From: a virus
Direction: 5' to 3' (one strand)
Length of the DNA: 20,084 nt
IMG/VR virus record: IMGVR_UViG_3300049043_000255
Location: 1-20,084 of that record
The first letter of the stretch is position 1, and each line of letters begins with the position of its first letter. Of this stretch, positions 841 to 19,600 are shown one piece after another. The position numbers and the translations under genes are program-made. Under the pieces are notes generated by a model, which saw only the letters and a list, made by a program, of their open reading frames with translations, had not been told where the DNA came from and did no database searches.

Positions 841-2370
841 GTGCCTTCATACGTCCATCTTGCGTACCGGCGTAATGCAAAGGCAGCTGCGCAGAAATAC
901 AATGTTAAGCCACAGAAGAATTTAGAACTTATTGAGAAAGCTCGCGAAGATTTTGGCTACTTCTGCGAGTTCATGGATGAGAAGAAGAAACCAGCCAAGC
1001 ACCATCTGGATTGGCACAAGCACTTCATCACAAACGAAAACAGTAGTTGCCTGATCAAGATTGCTGGTCCCAACATTGATCTACTTGCTCCACGGGGCTC
1101 AGCTAAAAGTACAGTTCTTGGTCTGTTAACGGCATGGGCCATTGGTATTCATGCCCAGGCCAAACTCCCCCTGCAGATTCTGTATCTGTCATATACCGTT
1201 GATATCGCACGTTCTAAATCAGCAACCATCAAGCGCATTATTGAAAGCAAAAAGTATCAAGAAATTTTTCCTACTGTTCGCCTTCTTAAGAACGTCACTA
1301 GTAACGAGTATTGGTCCATTGACCATAAGTTTGCTGGTATTGATGTAACCGGTGATGAACAATTTACGCTTTGCGCTGCTGGTTTAAAAGGTTCCGTGAC
1401 CTCCAAGCGTTCTCATCTTGTGATGATTGATGACGCTATTAAATCAGCGGCGGATATTTCCAACCCTGACATCCGAAAGATGATGCAGGATAACTGGAAC
1501 GCGGTGATTGCACCTACCATGTTTGAGGGTGCCAGGGCAATCTGCCTTGGTACGCGCTTCCGGCATGACGATATTCATGTTACAACTTTTAACGAGCAAA
1601 ACAACTGGACGCAGATTGTTCTCTCTGCTATTCAGACTAATCCCAAAACAGGTGACGAAGAATCCTACTGGCCAGAGATGTGGTCATTGGACTACCTGAA
1701 GGAAAAGAAACGGCAGGCACCAATTGCCTTTTCCTTCCAGTACATGAATCAGGTTGTCAGACAGAACGAGCTGTCTCTGGCACCTGAACTGATTGTTAAG
1801 GCGGAGATTGCAACTGAATTTGACACGCTTGGAATTGGGGTTGACCTATCAGCTGGAGTCAAAGAAAAGAATGATTACACCGTCATGATTCTGGGTGGGC
1901 GTATTGGAGATCGCATCCATATCATTGATTACCGGCGCATCCGCGTCATGGGCAACCTGGAGAAACTGGACGCCATGAAAGAACTTCTCAATGATTGGTC
2001 AGTGATTGGCAAGGATGATAACGGGCATTACTTCCCGACATATTCAACTTGTGACATCTGGTCAGAAGCAGTCCAGTACCAGGCTTCTCTCGAAGCCGAC
2101 TTCAAGCGCGTTTGCCTCAATAACGAAGGTTTGTACAACCTCATCTGGCATCCAGTAAAAGGGTTCCGTGCAGACAAGTTGGCACGGTTCAGGGGAATCA
2201 TCGGCATGTTTGAAGACCGAAAGATCATCTTCAACCGTTTCCGGAATTTTCCGAATCTCTTCGAGGAACTCACGAATTTCGGCGTTAGTAGTCATGACGA
2301 CTGTGTGGATGCGTTGGTTTGGTTAGTAACCGGACTTGCCAGAAAAGGACAACTCCATCTTGATTTCTAA
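841..2370 (+). CDS. terL: Terminase large subunit
   Basis: This is the DNA-packaging motor: it hydrolyses ATP to drive the genome through the portal into the prohead and cuts concatemers with its nuclease domain. The 509-aa length is normal for the family. The ATPase domain shows a Walker A PRGSAKST (residues 84-91), a Walker B VMIDD (194-198) and a coupling motif LGTR (236-239). The C-terminal RNase H-like nuclease has its expected acidic residues: D335 in GVDLSAG, D405 and E409 in CDIWSE, and D486, D487 and D490 in HDDCVDAL. The start is GTG at 841 with no strong Shine-Dalgarno; the N-terminus before the ATPase looks complete. The gene is intact, unlike many neighbours. No small terminase subunit is recognised nearby. 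The family call is secure; the packaging type (cos, headful or direct repeat) cannot be read from the sequence. Confidence 0.95.
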   Translation: MPSYVHLAYRRNAKAAAQKYNVKPQKNLELIEKAREDFGYFCEFMDEKKKPAKHHLDWHKHFITNENSSCLIKIAGPNIDLLAPRGSAKSTVLGLLTAWAIGIHAQAKLPLQILYLSYTVDIARSKSATIKRIIESKKYQEIFPTVRLLKNVTSNEYWSIDHKFAGIDVTGDEQFTLCAAGLKGSVTSKRSHLVMIDDAIKSAADISNPDIRKMMQDNWNAVIAPTMFEGARAICLGTRFRHDDIHVTTFNEQNNWTQIVLSAIQTNPKTGDEESYWPEMWSLDYLKEKKRQAPIAFSFQYMNQVVRQNELSLAPELIVKAEIATEFDTLGIGVDLSAGVKEKNDYTVMILGGRIGDRIHIIDYRRIRVMGNLEKLDAMKELLNDWSVIGKDDNGHYFPTYSTCDIWSEAVQYQASLEADFKRVCLNNEGLYNLIWHPVKGFRADKLARFRGIIGMFEDRKIIFNRFRNFPNLFEELTNFGVSSHDDCVDALVWLVTGLARKGQLHLDF

Positions 2371-3384: not shown

Positions 3385-5181
3385 CTCTAATGCCAGACTT
3401 CAAGAAATTATCAACGCTTACATCGAGAAGGATGGCAATGCTGTTGTTGATACCAGTGTCGTTGCTTCTCACCTGGCGCAGATGAAATTATTCGGCATCC
3501 GTCAGGGTGTTGAATTTTTTCCAGGGCAAGATAATTTTGGTAATCAGCGCAAGGATTTTATTGATCGCGTTATCAAGTACAACCAACTTGATACGCGCCT
3601 GGATTCCATCTGGGATTATTTCTTGTGTGATGGCAAGGGATTGTTTTATATCCGGCCAACCAAGCAGAACTACAGGCTCTATTACTTCCGTGAGCACGAA
3701 TACCGTTCGTTCTATAACGTAGACGGTGAGTTAGAAGAAGTCATCATCATCTACAGCTACAAGGTGCGACGTGGCTTTGGTTTTGGTGACAACATTAATG
3801 TCACCAACGTCACAGGCACTGCTATCACTGGGGACCAAGGTGCTAAGCGTTATATCAAACTTTCAATTAAAGCAAAGCAAATTGAAGAAACACACTCAGA
3901 AGGCGAGATGTCTTTTGAGATGCCTTCTTTTGCCAACCCTGGAAAAACCAAAACCTTTAAAAACTCCCTTGGTTTTATCCCTTGTGTTGAGATCTTCAAC
4001 AACCCCAAAGGTTTTGCCATGGAAGGGGTTGGTGAATTTGACGCCTTAGCCAACCATATTGTTACGCACGATGAGTTGGTCCGCACCATGCGGAAGAACG
4101 TTCAATTCTTTGGTAACCCAACCCTTCTTTCCTCCAGGCCCAAGACCGACCTTATGGAGTCGGGTACAGATGGTGCCGTTCAGCGTCCGTCGATTGCAGC
4201 CAACTCGGGCTTTGGCAGTCTGAGTGCATACAGTCGGTCAACCTTCAAACAAGATCCGATCACCCGTGGTGTTGATGGGCAGATCAGAGTTCCAAGGGTG
4301 ATTGCCAACCTGGAGCCCAATGATCGTGTTGGTTATATCGTCCCGGATGCCATCACTGGCGATCAAAACGCATTTGCCCGTCAGTACAGGGAAGAAATCC
4401 GTACTGCCCTTGGTGGTGTGGATGAACTATCAATTTCGGCAGGCGTAACCGCTACTGAATACAAATCACTATTTGGTCGTGTTGCTGCTACATCCAAGAA
4501 AAAAGCAACTTCCATTTACACCCACGGTATTTGCCGTTGCTTGGAACTGATTATCTTTCAGGAAGAACGTATATTCCGCGAGACACTTGCTGCTGCTGCT
4601 GGGATCGAAAAGCCAGTAGAGCCGGCGGATAATGCGAGTGAAGAAGAAATGGATTTGTATGAAGCTGCTTTAGATGGCTTCAATAATCAGATTAAACAAC
4701 TGATGATGGCGTCTGTTCAAACACAACAGATTCCACCCGGTGTGACCGGCTTGATTCCTGATGGTGATCGTAACTATTCTCTGGAGATGGTTCAGGTCCT
4801 GTCTACGAAGATTCGACGCAAGATATTCTGAACAACTCCATTGTTGTCCGAAATCTGCAAGAATTAGGTGTTGATAGCATTGAAGCACTGAAATACCTCT
4901 TTCCGTCAAAAACGGATGAGGAACGGGCCGAGATGTTATCTGGGTTCCCGTTCAGGATGGTGAACGAATTACAGGGTGCATACTCTCAGTTCGCTCGCTT
5001 AGTGGGGGGCATGATGCAGACCCCACACCCGCAATCACCGGATTTACCCGATGGCTGCGGATCCCAGACTGGATTTAACCCCATATCTGTATCGAACCCT
5101 CGAGGCCTTACAAAAGGAGATGAGTTATGCAGGACGCTACCGTCCAATCGATCCCACAGACGAGCCAACCGTCGCCCGTAG
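3374..5181 (+). CDS. Portal protein (by position), frameshifted
   Basis: This is probably the head portal, the dodecameric ring at the capsid vertex through which terminase pumps DNA. The evidence is position between terminase and the scaffold and capsid genes, size (about 600 codons) and a mixed alpha/beta N-terminus (VVASHLAQMKLFGIRQ; FLCDGKGLFYIRP) like phage portals; no single diagnostic motif is seen. ATG 3374 has AAGGAG at 3358-3363. The first frame stops at 4831, but coding continues one frame over from about 4790 (DSTQDILNNSIVVRNLQEL) and shifts again near 5048 into ADPRLDLTPYLYRTLEALQK. The true 3' end is uncertain: the last frame stays open into the scaffold gene, and 5181 is only the first nearby stop in the preceding frame. 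The C-terminus is helical and then Ser/Gly-rich. Confidence 0.7.
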
Positions 5182-6088
5182 CGGTAGCTCCCAGCAGCTA
5201 CGTGGTGGCAGCGCCTCAGGCGCCCTCGGCTCCAGTGGCTTATCAGGTGGGTACCAGTTACCCCAAGCAGTGCCCCAGGCGAGCCCCAGCTACCAATCCG
5301 CCCCGTCTCAATACGCCCCCCAATTCCAATCGGCCCCACAGGCGGAGTCGACCTCCAGTCCGTGGGAATCGGCGTTCAACAAGGTGGTGAACCTGCTGAG
5401 CGCACCAGTTCAATCCCCGTTCCAGGCTCCACCGTCGGCTCCGACGAGCTATACCCCGGCCAACTTCGGGTCGATCAGCCCCCAAGCTACGCCACAATCG
5501 GTAGCGCCGACCTCATATCCCAGCCAGGCATACTCGCCCAGCTCTTCCCCAATCTCCTCGACTCCATCCTTGGAGCAAATCGCGGACCTGGTGGGAATGA
5601 GCCAGAACAGCCGTCAGGTGATGGACGCGTTCGGGATCGAAGCTCCGGCAGTGCTGAACAACTACGCCCTCCAGCTGGAAACAATGCTGGACAGCGCCGT
5701 CGCGTGGGGAAATCGCGCAAGTGACACGATTCAGAACTACGCCCAGTTTGCTGTTAACGAGCACCAAGAGAACCTCGCTTACAACGAAATCCTGACGAAC
5801 CCCGATGTACTCAGCGATTACACGCTGAAGTTCTTTGGTCCCGAAGGTCCTTATCCCGTGTACGAAAACGAGGCTCAATTGGAAACACCTGGTTATCCCA
5901 CTCAGCAAGTTATGCAACCTGAGCTGGGTCAAATGCCTGCTCCCCCTGCCGCTGCTGCTCCTCAGCAACCCGGCAATTTCTGGGGTGATTTCAATGACAT
6001 GATGGCTCGTGATCCCCAGAATGCCTGGCGCGTTCTGAATCAGGCTCAGCCTCAAGTTGTTGCGAACAAACTGTTCGTAATGGAGTAA
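5127..6088 (+). CDS. Scaffold-like Pro/Gln/Ser-rich protein, frameshifted
   Basis: A gene of about 320 codons just upstream of the major capsid gene, the usual place of a prohead scaffolding protein. ATG 5127 has a strong Shine-Dalgarno, AAGGAG at 5114-5119. Its frame gives a Pro/Ala/Ser/Gln-rich N-terminus (QTSQPSPVAVAPSSYVVAAP) and, after one frame change near 5270, continues as AVPQASPSYQSAPSQYAP to a stop at 6088. The second half is helical (LEQIADLVGMSQNSRQVMDA; a long helix with QLETMLDSAVAWGNRAS), followed by another Pro/Gln-rich part and a helical end (QNAWRVLNQAQPQVVANKLF). Disordered plus helical composition fits scaffolds. Without the frame change, one frame is open from 5051 to 6088, so a 5051 start is the alternative reading. 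Function is inferred from position and composition. Confidence 0.6.
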
Positions 6089-6206: not shown

Positions 6207-7374
6207 GTGTTTATTGATAACGATTTTCCAAAGATCTTAGGTGCGGAACTTTATCGTCCGCACCCTGCCTACATTGCCGAAATGGCAGTGGAGCCCGTGG
6301 TTGTTCACGACTTCACCCGTCAGCCCGGTCAAACCGTTCAGCTGGATCGCTATAAGTTCTGGGGTACTCCTGGTACCAAGGACAGCCGTGAGCGCGTGTC
6401 CGACCAGACCATCGGTACTGCCAACAGCCGGAACATCACGAAGGAAAAGGTCCTGGTGGTGCTCAAAGAGTACACCGGCCCTGCAGATCCCGGGTGATCC
6501 GACCCAGCCCAGCACCTTCAAGATTGCTCGTGAAACCCTGATTACCGCCCAGCGTCTGCTGCTGGACACCGGTAACCTGAACATGTTCCACCAGAGCATC
6601 GGTTCGCTGACCCTGCTTGACGACTATCGCCGTTGGCGCGACCGCGTGTTCATTGATGAACTCGCCAAAGCCGAAGCCAATGGTGTTGCTTCCACAACTC
6701 AAGGTGGTTACTACTTCCCTGGTGCCAAGACCAAGAATGCTTCTGGTCAAATTACCTACACCAGCACTGAGTACACCGCCGACCTGCAGCAGTTCTCGGT
6801 TCGCACTGACCTGCTGACTGTTGTCAAGGACCTGCGCAAGCGCAACGTTCCGACCTTCTCTGATGGTCTGTATCGTTGCATCTGCGATCCCACCTTCATG
6901 ATGCACCTGCGTCGTGATCCTGACTTCCGTGAGATCGCTCGTTACGCTGGTAACCCTGGCCAAGGCATGTACATGGGCAACCCCATGATGCCTAACAACG
7001 CCAGCTTCTACATGGGTCCTCAGGCTGGTCAGGGCTACTTCCTGGCTGGTGAGCCCGTGATGCCTACTGGCGTCCAGTTTGAAGGTGTGAAGTTCTTCGA
7101 GTCGACCAACTTCCCGACCAAGAACATCACTGCTTCCTTCGGTGGTACCGGCGGCACCTACGCTGCTCAAGAAGTTGCTCAAGGTTACTTCTTCGGTCCT
7201 CAAGCTGTTGGCGTGGGTATCGGCGGTCCTAACGCTCAGGTGCTCATTAACAACAACGATGACTTCAGCCGTTTCATCATCCTGATCTGGCAACTGTATG
7301 CTGGCTTCGAGATCCTGAACAAGGACTTCGTTACCACTGCTTACAGCTTTGTTTCTGACGACGGCACTGTCTGA
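6207..7374 (+). CDS. Major capsid protein, one frameshift
   Basis: This forms the icosahedral shell. GTG 6207 has GGAGG at 6192-6196, and the N-terminus reads MFIDNDFPKILGAELYRPH. The first frame stops at 6497; coding continues in the next frame from about 6490 (GDPTQPSTFKIARETLITAQ) to 7374, giving about 389 aa once one base is corrected. Patterns such as VEPVVVHDF, QTVQLDRYKFWG, RNITKEKVLVVLKEYTGPAD and LYRCICDPTFMMHLRRD resemble N4-gp56-type HK97-fold capsid proteins and capsid proteins I remember from cyanophages. The middle is Gly/Met/Asn-rich (QGMYMGNPMMPNNASFYMG), probably a surface loop. Codon use is strongly biased toward C-ending codons, like the next gene, as expected for a very abundant protein. 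Placement after portal and scaffold strengthens the call. Confidence 0.85.
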
Positions 7375-8242: not shown

Positions 8243-8671
8243 ATGTCTACTATTGCCGAAATGCTTTACCAGCACAAAAAAACAGGTGCCCGCGTAAAGA
8301 TCGTCAGCGAGTGGGATAACGGCGATTGGTTCATGGTTGAAGACCAGGACGGTCGTGTTTATACCGCTTACAAATCTGAATTGATTCTTGATGAGTCGGC
8401 AACCAAAAAAGTAAAAACTCTTCAGATTAAAGATAAAGCTGCACAAGAGGAACCCCGTTCATTCCCTCCGGAAACGCGGTTGAACATCAATTCCGCCACT
8501 GCCCAAATGATCGCAGATCATATCAAAGGCATTGGTTTGAAGACTGCCCGAGAAATTAAAGACCTTCAGATGTCCTTATCGGGTGAGAGGTTCAACAACT
8601 TAGAGCAGCTCAGGCAGATCAAGCGTGTTGATTGGGATGCCGTACTGGCAGCTGATTTAATCCGAGTTTAA
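8243..8671 (+). CDS. Helix-hairpin-helix (ComEA-like) protein
   Basis: A 142-aa protein with two parts. Residues about 1-50 are beta-rich (KTGARVKIVSEWDNGDWFMV, then GRVYTAYKSELI), resembling a small SH3-like barrel. Residues about 72-142 match the ComEA-type helix-hairpin-helix domain: LNINSATAQMIADHIKGIGL, then TAREIKDLQ, a Gly-containing turn and NLEQLRQI. Family knowledge says such domains bind DNA backbone without sequence specificity. No signal peptide or membrane segment is present, so this is not a competence receptor. Being between the capsid genes and a terminator, it may act in DNA packaging, head completion or DNA protection; that is inference. The ATG at 8243 has a hairpin in place of a Shine-Dalgarno, so expression may be controlled separately from the capsid genes. 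Confidence 0.75.
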   Translation: MSTIAEMLYQHKKTGARVKIVSEWDNGDWFMVEDQDGRVYTAYKSELILDESATKKVKTLQIKDKAAQEEPRSFPPETRLNINSATAQMIADHIKGIGLKTAREIKDLQMSLSGERFNNLEQLRQIKRVDWDAVLAADLIRV

Positions 8672-8740: not shown

Positions 8741-9500
8741 ATGGCAACAGCACTTGACCTAGGTAATGTCGGCCTGACCGGAGTAACATCTGGTCCTCAT
8801 GCACATTGGACTGTTACCAAAGGTGGTCAACTGTTTCCGTTATCGAAAGCACGCAAAGATTTAGGGCAATACATCGAGTTTCGTCCCCCAGGTGAACAGT
8901 CTTGGCGGCGTTTATACAGTGACGAAAAATCTGGTTTTAAATTTAATCCAACTGGGTTTCAAGGTTTAACCATTTCTAGTCCCATGGGGACAAGGCAAAC
9001 CGGCATTCCTGGGGCGACTACAAATCACCGTGGAGAAGATTACACATTTCCAGAGGGCACTAGTCTGCGTTTCCTTGGTCCTGGTTCTGTTGCCACTTAT
9101 TCAGGGCAGGGATCTGGTGGCAATGTTTCCAGCTTGCGCACAGGTCCTTATGAATTAGAGACCATGCACTTAGGCAGGCTTCCTGGTTCTGCCACAACAC
9201 GCAAGAGCGATACAACCGCAACAACAATCGTCCAGCCCAGACGGTGAAGCATGGGCACGAGCATACATTGAAAACCAAGTTCAAAATCAAACACAACAAG
9301 GCCAGCTTATTGATGCTTTAATTTCTGTTTTGAATGAAAAAGAAAAGCCCAAAACCTTAATGGAGCAAATGAAAGAAGGTTTGATTGGTGGCATGATGCA
9401 GCAGGTGTTAACACCCAAAAACTTTCTTAGTCAGTTCACTGGAGACGATCCATACCTCCAAGGCCAGCGGTACGCAACCAACCAGTTCTTTGGGCTGTGA
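8741..9500 (+). CDS. M23-type peptidase with permuted motif order, frameshifted
   Basis: Probably a peptidoglycan endopeptidase carried in the virion or used at lysis. In lysostaphin/M23 peptidases zinc is bound by HxGxD near the start and by an HxH motif (GPHLHF-like) near the end, with another His in an xxHL motif between. Here a GPHAHWTV segment (H20, H22) comes first, then the domain opening ISSPMGTRQTG and HRGED (H96, D100), then METMHL-like TMHLG (H143). All the motif residues exist but in a circularly permuted order. The first frame stops at 9247; after a change between about 9195 and 9227, coding continues (SSPDGEAWARAYIENQ, a helical tail, ending NQFFGL) to TGA 9498-9500, about 253 aa in all. 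No signal peptide. The start ATG 8741 follows the terminator and has only a weak ribosome site. Confidence 0.72.
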
Positions 9501-9543: not shown

Positions 9544-10005
9544 GTGCAATTATCTGACTTCGATAAAAGTAGGGTCAGGTATCACCTGGGTTACTTCACG
9601 GTTTCTGTTCCTGCGGGTGATTATGCTCGTCTGGAAGAAGCCATGAATACAATTCCAGACTCATATTTTTACGACAAGATCGTTATTCAGATCGGTCGCT
9701 GTGACACCGCTGAAAAGAAAACTGAGGTGGCGACTTCGCCTTCGACTCGGTTGGAGAGCATTGCTGGTGACGTTGACCGTACAATTCGGTCAAGTAATGC
9801 CAAGGAAGCCCTTAAGGTTTGGAATGAAATCTATCTGTACGAAACAGATCGATTAGCTAACATCTTGTACGTTCCAAACTACAAAGATCCGTTCCAGGCC
9901 AGGTATCGATATGAACGCTCAGGTGCGGAATTCATTCAAGCTTTACCTGGTCCTGCTGACACTGCAGTGGGTTCTCGTATCTATCTTCATGAGGTTTGGC
10001 GGTAA
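9544..10005 (+). CDS. Conserved neck-type protein (inferred)
   Basis: An intact 153-aa protein starting at GTG 9544 without a clear Shine-Dalgarno. It has an N-terminal helix-strand region (MQLSDFDKSRVRYHLGY; RLEEAMNTI), a charged helical centre (LKVWNEIYLYETDRLANIL) and a C-terminal part ending TAVGSRIYLHEVW. It contains no enzyme motif, signal peptide or membrane segment. I remember proteins starting QLSDFDKSRVRYHLGY in cyanophage virion clusters. Size, mixed alpha/beta composition and place after the head genes would suit a head-tail connector or head-completion protein, but no motif proves it. The stop at 10003-10005 overlaps a TAATG whose ATG (10004) may be the true start of the following gene. 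Confidence 0.6.
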   Translation: MQLSDFDKSRVRYHLGYFTVSVPAGDYARLEEAMNTIPDSYFYDKIVIQIGRCDTAEKKTEVATSPSTRLESIAGDVDRTIRSSNAKEALKVWNEIYLYETDRLANILYVPNYKDPFQARYRYERSGAEFIQALPGPADTAVGSRIYLHEVWR

Positions 10006-12051: not shown

Positions 12052-12290
12052 GTTACTCCGACTATTCTGATAAATATCTCCCCGGAGAGTATTTACGTGC
12101 CAAGTTTGGTTCAGGCGCTTTTCGCTTTGTCCCAGATACACAAACTACGATGGATAGCGAGTCCTTTCAGCGGTTTCTCAATCTCCAGAGGAACCCTGAA
12201 AGCTTATTTTCAGAAGCAGTGAAATACCCAAAAGGTTTCACTGATTACATGAATTTTATGCAGGAGTTTGGGTTGACTCCAAGGGTATAA
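12048..12290 (+). CDS. Small hypothetical protein
   Basis: An 80-aa protein starting at GTG 12048, which overlaps the previous stop (GTGA). It is Tyr-, Phe- and Ser-rich (SYSDYSDKYLPGEYLRAKFG; SFQRFLNLQRNPESLF) with no recognised domain. Its last 35 bases overlap the end of the convergent HNH gene on the other strand. The overlap, small size and normal composition suggest that the HNH gene landed beside and not inside it, but a few C-terminal residues could have been replaced. Probably a minor virion protein by context. Confidence 0.55.
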   Translation: MSYSDYSDKYLPGEYLRAKFGSGAFRFVPDTQTTMDSESFQRFLNLQRNPESLFSEAVKYPKGFTDYMNFMQEFGLTPRV

Positions 12291-12837
12291 TTGTTGCAAA
12301 CGCTCTTTCCAGGGGCCAGTTTTTATTTAATCTTTTTTGCATTGATTGCGGAGCAATACCAACTTCTTTGGCCCAGTCTGCGATACACATGGTTTTACCG
12401 TTAAACGTGTATAAACGGGTCGCACGCTTTCCACCTCTATTTCGTGTTTGCTCTTTATGAGTTGCCCATCGGCAATTTTCTTTGCAATAAGGTTTGTCAT
12501 TATCAATTCTTTCTAATTCCATCTTTGGATTTGGCTTTAACCCCATATCGTTTAAAAAGTTTTGAAAATCTTCCCAAGATTTGTCATAAGTAATACCTCT
12601 TCCGCCATATCGATTGTAAGCTTTATGGTTTGAGTTGTTGCAACGATTTTTCATTGCGCACCATGAAGAATATTCACTGGTTTTGTTTTGCCAACCACCG
12701 TGTTTAAATCCACCGCAAACTTTGGAGCAAAACACATAACCGCGTTGTTTTAAGCGTTTTCGACAAGAAGCACCAGCACTTCCAGAGCGTGCAAATTCTT
12801 TACGGCAAGAAGCGCAAATAAAAACGGTTTGGACCAT
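12256..12837 (-). CDS. HNH homing endonuclease with zinc ribbon
   Basis: Free-standing homing endonuclease of 193 aa, the only minus-strand gene inside the structural cluster apart from the excisionase-like one. The chosen start is CAT at 12835-12837; a longer frame begins at 12972 but its extra residues are non-conserved and run through the next gene's leader. Domains: N-terminal zinc-ribbon-like cysteines C8, C11, C37, C41; an HNH-type core YNRYGGRGI (74-82), W88-F91, ELERIDND (107-114) and NCRWAT (121-126), EQTRN (129-133); and a C-terminal DNA-binding repeat IADWAKEVGIAPQSMQKRL (152-170), like NUMOD-type helix-turn-helix segments of homing enzymes. The gene is more AT-rich than its neighbours, consistent with later acquisition. 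It converges with the small gene at 12048. The target is probably in a related phage lacking it; no intron boundaries are visible. Confidence 0.9.
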   Translation of the reverse strand: MVQTVFICASCRKEFARSGSAGASCRKRLKQRGYVFCSKVCGGFKHGGWQNKTSEYSSWCAMKNRCNNSNHKAYNRYGGRGITYDKSWEDFQNFLNDMGLKPNPKMELERIDNDKPYCKENCRWATHKEQTRNRGGKRATRLYTFNGKTMCIADWAKEVGIAPQSMQKRLNKNWPLERAFATIIPLESTQTPA

Positions 12838-12861
12838 TAGAATAAAAAAAAGTTTCCGGAG

Positions 12862-12890
12862 ACATCCACCAATATAGCAGAGGTGGATGT
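12862..12890 (+). promoter_or_regulatory. Hairpin upstream of structural gene
   Basis: Arms ACATCCACC (12862-12870) and GGTGGATGT (12882-12890) pair perfectly over nine bases with an 11-base AT-rich loop. It lies between the HNH gene (minus) and the structural gene starting near 12901. It has no T-run, so a protective or control hairpin is likelier than a terminator. Confidence 0.5.
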
Positions 12891-12900
12891 TTAGTGTGTC

Positions 12901-13686
12901 TTGAGCTACGACATCTACGAATAAGCAGCCGTTGCTGGTTGATCGCCCGTTGTTTGATTCCGTGCGTGTCACGACTCAGACCGTGGGCAGCCAGGCTGGT
13001 AACACGATCTTTGTGCAAGGTGGTCAGGCGCCATCCATCCTTGTGGACATGGATGCTGCCCTGGAAGAAGACAATAATAACGGTGGTGTGATCGATTCAA
13101 TCACCATTACTCGCAACGATTACTACCGGGACGCTGATTACGTCGTTTCCAGTGGCACTTCTGGTAAAGTTATCTGCGCTGACCAGTGGTCAAGTTGTGT
13201 TGATCTACAGTACTGGTATTTTAAGCTACTGCTGCCGCAAGTGGTTTTGGCTATTACACCTACACCGGTGCAACCACCTTAACTGGCATGAACACCAAGT
13301 CTTCTGTACTCGGGCGGCACTTCGTCTGGTTTCACCTGTTCAACGGTGTGAACTACGGTTACCAGCCAGAAGTAACCTTCGTGTTCTACCACACCCGTGG
13401 TACAACCACACCGATCCCGGCTTCTGGTGATTACAAGGTTCTGTTCGCCAAGCAAGTCCCAGCCAACACCCAGCGTGTGGACTGTTCTGACGTGATGCCT
13501 CAGCTGTCGGCTCCTGTTGCAGCTGCTGGTGACACCCTGGGCCTTAGTAACGGTGTGCCCCTCCGCAACCGTGGCATCTACCTGGAACGCGGCGACCGTA
13601 TTTACGTTGGTGTGTTTGCAGACGGCCCTAACGTGTCGGGTTATACCGCCGGTGCTCACGTCCTTGCCCAAGGCGGATTCTTTTAA
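12901..13686 (+). CDS. Structural protein, frameshifted
   Basis: About 260 codons in three frames. The first part, ATSTNKQPLLVDRPLFDSVR, follows a TTG at 12901 with one extra base before GCT; the first start in the open frame is TTG 12932. A change near 13165 leads to ALTSGQVVLIYSTG and another near 13215 to ASGFGYYTYTGATTLTGMNT, ending FVL-type strands and LAQGGFF at TAA 13684-13686. The protein is beta-rich (Gly, Thr, Val, Tyr), with DYKVLFAKQVPANTQRVD and RGDRIYVGVFADGPN near the end; no membrane or enzyme motif. Codon use is C-ending, like the capsid and the 7409 gene, so an abundant virion component is likely. A decoration or tail-tube-like protein are both possible. Its leader carries the 12862-12890 hairpin. 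Confidence 0.6.
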
Positions 13687-16671: not shown

Positions 16672-19600
16672 ATGAAGTAACTCAGCAGGAGGCGTTTACT
16701 ACAACGCTAAAACCAGAAGTTGGCAGATTAACCAAGAAAAAACTGATTACAGGACAGATTATCCTACCGATGCTTTTACTGGTAGAAAAACAGATTACGT
16801 CACGAATCTGCCCACGCAGTCATTGCCAGAGTATTTACCCACAAATCTTCCAATTGATCTGCCTACAACATTATCAACTGATTTAAAAACAAACTATCCA
16901 ACTGACGCTCCAACTAATTTACAAAGAGAAGAAACTTATTACGCGCCCAGGCAATATTGGACTGACGACGGCACACCAGTAAATCAAACGTATTGGGATG
17001 ATTATGGTAATCAAATAACAGTATATTCAGATGAGCCAACAACACGGATGGTTGATGATACAGAAGCAAATGAAAGAAACCGTGCTCAAAACGAAGAAAA
17101 CGCAAGATTAAACACTTTAATCAGCAAAAAAATGCAGAAAATGCTCGTTTAAATGTAGAAAATGCTGCTGCTAACACTAACAATTACGAAACCAATCTTC
17201 GCAATGCAAATCAAAATTTAGAAATTCAAAAAGAAAGGAATCGGATTGAACAATTGAATTCTCAAAATGCAAACACCAACGCGCAAAATACACAGCTCAA
17301 CATTAATAATCAACGGTTAAATTATCAAGCGCAACAATTAAACCAAACAACACTGCATTGAATGCAGAAAAACACTCAGACAAATCGAGAAAACACAGCA
17401 AAGAACGGGCTTTATACAAAAACAGTTGGCATAGCTTCTGCCACACAAGGGGTGATTATGTAACGCAACGGGATCAAATTACGTTTAACGATTTGATTAA
17501 TGCAGGGCTCCCCACAAAAGATGCCCGAGATGTTGTTGACGGCATCAAAGCACAATACAAACTTTTTTATCAAACAGAAAAACTTAAACCATGGGACAGC
17601 AGCCTTGGAGCTACACCTCCGTACGGTACGTTTGATCCGCTGTATTACAAAGGTCAAAACCCAACTGTCAATGCAGCCTGGAATCAAGCTGTTGCCAATG
17701 ATGATATTGATATAACTGAGCGCTACGGGGAAAACAATTATTACTGGCAACACTACACCAAGATTGGCAAAAACCAAGGTTTGCGTGGTAATAAAGAAGA
17801 AGATTTAGCGGCTGCTAAAAAGTATGTTGAAAAAGCTTTAACGGATCAAGAGATTCAAAGTATTCGCGACCTGCAACTTGGGGTTGATACTGACACCATC
17901 ACGCAGCGCTTGTTAAATGTTTCCAGAAGTTTCTAACGAATGGACAAAAGCTCGACAGGGCGATGCCTACTGGAAGCAACTTGCAAAACAAAAGTACCTG
18001 GATGTCAATAAACCAGAAGAATTTGCCGTGCTTTTCCGTTTGTCTGATCCGACCAGAAGATAAACAAATCATTCTGAATTACAACGTTAATGCAGGCAGC
18101 GGTATCACAGAGAACTAGAAGACGCCATTAACACTGCCATCAACACCAAGAAGACGGTAGAGATCAAAAAGTTTGCTGCTTTGAACCAAACTGATCCTCA
18201 AGGACGCCATTGCTGAAATGAAGAAGCAAAAAGGAAGACAAGAGATGATGGACCTCTTCCGTGGCTTTGAAGGTTTTACTGAAGTTATGGATATCAACAA
18301 GGAAATCTCCAATTCAATCTTGGGGGATTCAGGTGTTGGCGGCATTCTTTCCATCACCTCTGGCAAAAAAGGAGAAGAAAGTTTGTTGAACTCATTGCAA
18401 AATGTAACGGGAATGCGGAATAGTATCGTCTACAACTGGCAGCAGTGGTTTGATAAATCCATTAAAGAAAAGTATGGAATTGATTACTCCTTATTTGAAC
18501 CCCTGGAAGAAAAGCGAGATATTGTTGATGCGTTTCTTTCTAGTAAAGAAAAACCTTACGATTCAACCAAAAATGAATTCAACCAAAAATTCTTGGAAGA
18601 AGCGGGGTTTAACACAACCAAAGATCTTTTGGATTTCCTGGGTAAGCAAGGGCCAGAAGGCCAGACCATTCTGACAGCTATTCAAGGTGATCCAGGGGAC
18701 GGCGCAAAGCTGACGCTCCAGCCCATCCTTTCTCGCCTAGAGGCTGACATCAAGACTCTGGATGAAACCAAAAACAGAGGCCTTGCGCTTGCTTACAGCA
18801 CAGGCGCTGAAACGGGAATGATGAACGTAGAAGCCCAGTACGCCAGAAACTATTTGGATGAATACCTGATTCCTCGTTTCAATACATCTAAGTCCATGGA
18901 TGAATTTATTGAATTCTTGGACACCAAACAGTCTGAACGTAACCCGTTTGAAATTACAGATATTGACAACACCTTGAAGAAGCTGGGTCAATTACACAGC
19001 CAGGTGTACTTGGACCAAGTGAAGCAACAAGGTCCACGGGGGTTTGATCCTGAGTTTTATTTTAATCCCACTGGAGATCGCAGCCGTACACAGCAGTATG
19101 CAGATCAGCAGAAGACGGTTGCAGAAGATTGGGAAAAAGCCAAAGCCGGTGATCCTTACTGGGCATCACAGATTTACCGCTTTGGTATTGACATTAATAA
19201 CAAAGCTGCGTTTGCCAGAATGCACTTTGAAGTTAAAGGTCAAGGTAAAGGATATGACGCTGCTGATGACATTACAAACGCCAGTAAAGTTCAAGACTTT
19301 ATCTCAATCAATGTAATGCCAATTTTGCAGAAAGAAGCAGATAAAACCACGGTTGTGTTTGGTACGTTTATTACTCCAGAAGAATTTGCCGACGAGATGG
19401 TGCGCGGCCTGGATCCGGCCAAAACACCCGATGCCTGGAAGCAAGTTCTTCAACGCTTCAAGCTGAATGATTTTAAGGGCACCGTCGATGAACTTAAGAA
19501 CTACATCACTGAAACTCTCCGTGGCAACTCCGCCCAAGAGATCCGAGATCAGATTAAATTCTTAAATGAAAAACGGCAGAAGCCTACTCAAGAAATCCTT

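Follow-up and report, generated by a model that had tools for sequence, protein, structure and literature searches.

A natural circular permutation of the M23 domain

The peptidase gene at positions 8741 to 9500 of the window (the whole stretch of viral DNA that was analysed, 20,084 nucleotides) encodes an M23 domain that is a natural circular permutation, with the piece that ends canonical members of the family found at the N-terminus of the protein. M23 is among the best-studied families of peptidoglycan hydrolases. Its members are identified by the sequence in which their motifs follow one another; consequently, a permuted member obtains only the score of a weak fragment in profile searches and is missed. 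The ORF reads ...VGLTGVTSGPHAHWTV...NHRGEDY...ELETMHLG..., that is, GPHAHW (H20, H22) is followed by HRGED (H96, D100) and then by TMHL (H143). This order (HxH, HxGxD, HL) had been claimed in a first-pass annotation of the region, and the translation of the ORF confirms it, with all motif residues present. In LytM, zinc is bound by H210, D214 and H293, and water is activated by H260 and H291 (PMC4594094, also the source of the LytM roles given below). The features of the gene are as follows:

8741-9247, + strand: ORF of 168 aa; aa 1-150 form the entire permuted M23 catalytic domain, and the end of the ORF, from about aa 163, is out of frame
8741-8821, + strand: moved C-terminal M23 piece (aa 1-27, LGNVGLTGVTSGPHAHWTV), corresponding to Pfam M23 positions 69-92
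8798-8806, + strand: HxH motif; by alignment, H20 corresponds to the catalytic H291 of LytM and H22 to its zinc ligand H293
8822-8959, + strand: linker (aa 28-73) between the former C- and N-termini, placed by the rotation-score plateau (cuts at about 36-72)
8960-9190, + strand: former N-terminal M23 piece (aa 74-150), from phmmer, the rotation test and profile-profile comparison
9026-9040, + strand: HxGxD motif; by alignment, H96 and D100 correspond to the zinc ligands H210 and D214 of LytM
9167-9169, + strand: H143 in TMHL, aligned with the catalytic H260 of LytM
9226-9255, + strand: frame change relative to the intact homologue L006, from the alignment of both
9255-9500, + strand: conserved C-terminal tail, a proposed virion anchor, in another frame here and 74% identical to the tail of L006

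When the window protein was searched against Pfam, PF01551 was the sole match, and residues 7-30 were aligned with profile positions 69-92 of 96; in other words, the C-terminal end of M23 was matched at the N-terminus of the protein. Similarly, phmmer found 3slu and 6muk in the PDB (E about 4-5e-7), with two crossed stretches: query 61-135 corresponded to residues 213-285 of 3slu, and query 7-35 to residues 311-340. As the linear order of M23 (HxxxD, HL and then HxH) is violated in the window protein, where HxH comes first, it is filed here as a permuted variant and not as an ordinary member of the family.

The permutation was also observed in a rotation test, which used a profile of 71 canonical M23 domains, mostly from bacterial genomes, and candidates rotated in steps of four residues. 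In natural order, the best match of the window domain to this profile scored 45.2 bits and covered profile positions 6-62. Rotation, which the first-pass annotation had proposed, brought it to 71.3 bits in a single match over positions 6-117, and the score reached a plateau when the cut lay in the linker; shuffled sequences obtained at most 5.4 bits in every family tested. In profile-profile comparisons, the two crossed matches of the window clade in natural order (96 and 60) became one full-length match of 148 once rotated. For a control, only half of the canonical domains went into a new profile and 35 were held out. The gain on rotation was 0-0.6 bits in all 35 of them, against a median of 17.8 bits in the permuted domains (n=53) with the same half-set profile. 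Gains were smaller (0.5 to about 17 bits) in those members of the clade of Synechococcus phage S-EIV1 that carry HxD, apparently because that strand has diverged. With PF01551 itself, whose gathering score is 28.7, the window protein obtained 19.7 and at most 21.1 after rotation, both below that score, while some relatives passed it (30.1 for L006, 31.5 for S-TIM5 and 44.5 for S-TIM54).

Homologues, gene slot and other phage lineages

An intact IMG/VR homologue, L001, has 242 aa and is 79% identical to the window protein. In the isolate S-EIV1, the orthologue AHV82231.1 also has the permuted order and is annotated as 'peptidase M23 family', an annotation that is silent on the permutation. It resembles the window protein in its orthologous slot, its neighbours, its permuted order and its C-terminal tail, but it carries HxD instead of HxH and is 37% identical to the L001 protein. 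About 25 further contigs have the permuted order as well, mostly in the same gene slot.

Scans of IMG/VR produced a set of 28 aligned sequences. All 28 are permuted, and H20, S80, R85, H96, D100 and H143 are invariant in them. The conservation of GPHAH, another point of the first-pass annotation, holds for H20 (28 of 28) but not for H22, which is His only in the subclade of the window (the window protein, L001 and L006) and Asp in the remaining homologues; activity may therefore differ in most S-EIV1-type relatives. The canonical second HxH after residue 150, which the first-pass annotation had weighed against its own reading, is absent from the intact homologues L001 and L006, in which no His follows the HL motif. 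Additionally, a PF01551 search of the whole records of the relatives found no second M23 domain, although such a search can miss permuted ones.

The neighbours of the window gene are homologues of S-EIV1 proteins:

8243-8671, + strand: upstream neighbour, a helix-hairpin-helix protein (homologue of AHV82230)
9544-10005, + strand: downstream neighbour, phrog_29158 (homologue of AHV82232)

In most contigs, the capsid gene is followed by those of a 265-aa protein, a helix-hairpin-helix protein, the peptidase and the phrog_29158 protein, in this order. The L051-L062 group differs: there, the gene after the helix-hairpin-helix one is the phrog_29158 homologue, and the peptidase is found about 0.6-1.1 kb further downstream. 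In L058 (3427-4113), L060 and L061, the permuted M23 domain has been replaced, with the slot and the C-terminal tail unchanged. The replacement reads HPVGMAIDV...HVHL; we call it M15-like solely by its motif pattern, HxxGxAxD...HxH, and Pfam, PHROGs and NCBIfam gave no name to the domain of L058. The presence of an M15-like domain on the same tail points to a virion-associated peptidoglycan hydrolase, and a role of the tail in attaching the enzyme to the particle is suggested by its retention when the catalytic domain is exchanged. Moreover, S-EIV1 has a separate gene annotated as lysozyme, and the permuted peptidase would thus not be needed as an endolysin.

The permuted M23 domain is not an oddity of the window phage; this variant occurs in four virion contexts at least. 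A query with the S-EIV1 protein retrieved tape-measure proteins of Acinetobacter and Moraxella phages, and a genome scan added Psychrobacter phages; the tape measures of all three read RLVGISG...HLx...HxGxD...LLH, a permuted order that is also found in those of other Moraxellaceae genomes. In the Moraxella phages Mcat21 (L239), Mcat18 and Mcat22, the tape measure is annotated as two ORFs, with the break within the permuted HxGxD region. A structure search with the window model led to the cyanomyovirus S-TIM5, whose virion structural protein is permuted (IIGWVG...GAHLHMEI...HTGVDIA...FLAHLL), in agreement with S-TIM54 and S-TIM66. The proteins of S-TIM5 (L271) and S-TIM66 (L268) are near-identical around the permuted domain and 41% identical inside it; as the divergence is almost confined to this domain, it travels as a module. 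The S-TIM5 protein (L271:4456-7449) also has a degenerate M23 stretch (profile positions 45-79) upstream of the permuted one, a possible relic that fits an origin through tandem duplication, although this is only suggestive. At its C-terminus, the same protein has a phage tail lysozyme domain (PF18013). A pattern search of IMG/VR returned no S-TIM5-type relatives. A second structure search found a divergent permuted domain, perhaps inactive, with altered HxxxD spacing in gp33, an internal virion protein of P60; the domain occurs in degenerate form in P60-type cyanopodovirus internal virion proteins. The linker measures about 25 to 50 residues across the permuted families. Canonical M23 order was found in the T4-like cyanophages S-RIM44, Syn1, S-PM2 and S-H9-1.

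Structure models were obtained with AlphaFold2 for the window domain (pLDDT 82.8, pTM 0.78) and for a permuted tape-measure domain (pLDDT 84.8, pTM 0.80). Among the best PDB matches of the window model, residues 228-317 of Csd3 (M23) corresponded to model residues 39-154 (Z 5.6, rmsd 3.7, 83 aligned), in a tie with lectins. For the tape-measure model, residues 185-270 of LytM corresponded to model residues 33-127 (Z 6.2, rmsd 2.8, 85 aligned); the best 12 matches of this model (VIA) were all M23, and the alignment did not include H291 and H293, the HxH of LytM. Aligners that keep chain order thus matched to M23 only the former N-terminal part of either model, with modest Z scores of 5-6. Foldseek found no PDB match under E 0.001 for the window model, as expected when only half of a permuted domain can be aligned in order. 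Against viral models, an order-keeping alignment of the tape-measure model spanned the whole domain of S-TIM5 (TM 0.69 by query length), which is the result expected for a shared permuted topology. The claim of a naturally permuted M23 domain is supported by these sequence-order structure matches, together with profiles, rotation with held-out controls, and homologues.

A tree of 66 domains and 112 columns was used to compare possible origins. The free search placed the subclade of the window apart from the HxD subclade, and the trees constrained to hold together all permuted members, or all S-EIV1-type members, outscored it (AU p 0.64 and 0.74, respectively). A single origin of all permuted members is neither rejected by this test (AU p 0.64) nor shown by it. 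We tentatively propose that one ancient permutation may have founded a phage-specific M23 lineage, which then moved as a module into the tape measures of siphophages, the virion proteins of myophages, the internal virion proteins of podophages, and S-EIV1-type phages. The new termini may have favoured this spread, being suited to insertion into virion proteins or to delivery by them.

Proposed working, rival readings and known enzymes

The window protein is probably a permuted M23 zinc metallopeptidase with a tail of about 80 residues, most likely borne by the virion, that would open the cell wall at entry. The strand pair with which canonical M23 domains finish, IGxVGxTGxxxGPHxH, stands at the start of the protein, and the linker joins it to the usual first part (SxxGxR...HxGxD...HL). 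The segment between HL and IGxVG, internal in canonical domains, is opened and provides the new termini. By analogy with LytM, zinc would be bound by H96, D100 and H22, and water activated by H20 and H143, and the enzyme would presumably cut peptide bonds of the host peptidoglycan. Carried in the virion through its conserved tail, it would open the wall locally during genome entry. A virion location is most likely, considering the gene context and the relatives of the domain, which sit in tape-measure, virion structural and internal virion proteins.

The protein might have the permuted M23 fold without being an enzyme, and serve as a structural or peptidoglycan-binding module of the virion, which we consider unlikely. 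Non-catalytic LytM-type domains do exist (e.g., SpoIIQ and EnvC), most relatives have Asp in place of the zinc-ligand His, and the HxxxD spacing is altered in P60-type relatives. However, all five active-site residues are kept in the window protein, L001 and L006, and four of them (H20, H96, D100 and H143) do not vary in the 28 homologues. Additionally, the exchange of HxH for HxD is also seen in M23 domains of canonical order (L069 and L070), and in three contigs the domain has given way to one whose motifs are typical of a different peptidase family. Even less probable is that the functional unit is a domain-swapped oligomer, with the active site of one chain completed by the N-terminal HxH strand of another; the tolerance of linkers of very different length and the confident single-chain models for two families speak against it. 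The motifs are short, but a chance resemblance, in which an unrelated GPHAH would precede an ordinary or incomplete M23 fragment, is refuted by the rotation test with its controls and by the conserved order in 28 homologues and further phage lineages. Likewise, although the contig, with its several frame changes, is clearly imperfect, a wrong joining of two M23 gene pieces during assembly is refuted by the same order in independent contigs and in the complete genome of the isolate S-EIV1; shared with the intact L001 as well, the permutation is therefore no artefact of the contig.

The closest known enzymes are those of family M23 (PF01551; lysostaphin, LytM, MepM and EnpA), with which the window protein shares the motif residues HxxxD, HL and HxH, a whole-domain profile match after rotation and, for the aligned part, a similar predicted fold. 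It differs in that the halves are swapped, the HL-IGxVG segment is opened and a new linker joins the old ends. EnpA (PMC8269130) is an M23 domain carried by a tape-measure protein, as in the Moraxellaceae phages; however, its solved domain is canonical (the moved piece of the window corresponds to EnpA residues 96-119), while those of the Moraxellaceae phage tape measures are permuted. Circularly permuted families are known in NlpC/P60 (YaeF/G6R and LRAT-like, cited in PMC6403190) and set a precedent for natural permutation, as peptidoglycan hydrolases also use this fold; NlpC/P60 is, however, a cysteine peptidase fold unrelated to M23. A search limited to the open-access literature found nothing relevant on permuted M23, LytM or lysostaphin. 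The natural permutation reveals which parts of the M23 fold are independent and offers a new frame for engineering an enzyme class in medical use. To our knowledge, little is known about the enzymes with which cyanobacterial phages enter the cell wall, and the permuted M23 domain points to a type of virion enzyme for them.

Host and quality of the contig

The cyanobacterial host suggested in the first-pass annotation is supported by synteny with the Synechococcus phage S-EIV1: TerL is 75-85% identical and the portal 65%, and the order of head and packaging genes is conserved. A prophage resembling S-EIV1 has been reported in S. elongatus UTEX 3055 (PMC9239245).

The tail of the window peptidase runs on in another frame up to a stop at 9498-9500, and the corrected protein of 253 aa that had been proposed is right in substance. 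Other genes of the contig, including that of the major capsid protein, are broken in a similar manner:

6207-7374, + strand: major capsid protein, frameshifted at about 6490-6512

Frame changes likewise break the homologues of the S-EIV1 portal, AHV82236 and AHV82241. As other genes are affected and L001, L006 and S-EIV1 are intact, the frameshift of the peptidase gene most likely stems from an indel introduced in sequencing or assembly, and the ORF calls of this error-rich contig need care. Relative to intact S-EIV1 or L001 orthologues, the frame changes lie at 4795-5347, 6490-6512, 13176-13244, 17869-18000 and 19790.

Two further observations were made. The S-EIV1 TerL (L005:2477-5017) has an intein-like insertion at about aa 195-530 (CLVGDTMV...HNFIANGFNVLNC), which is absent from the terminase of the window (841-2370). 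Finally, a 238-aa ORF between tail genes of the window (12256-12972, - strand) has, by eye, the look of an HNH-type endonuclease.
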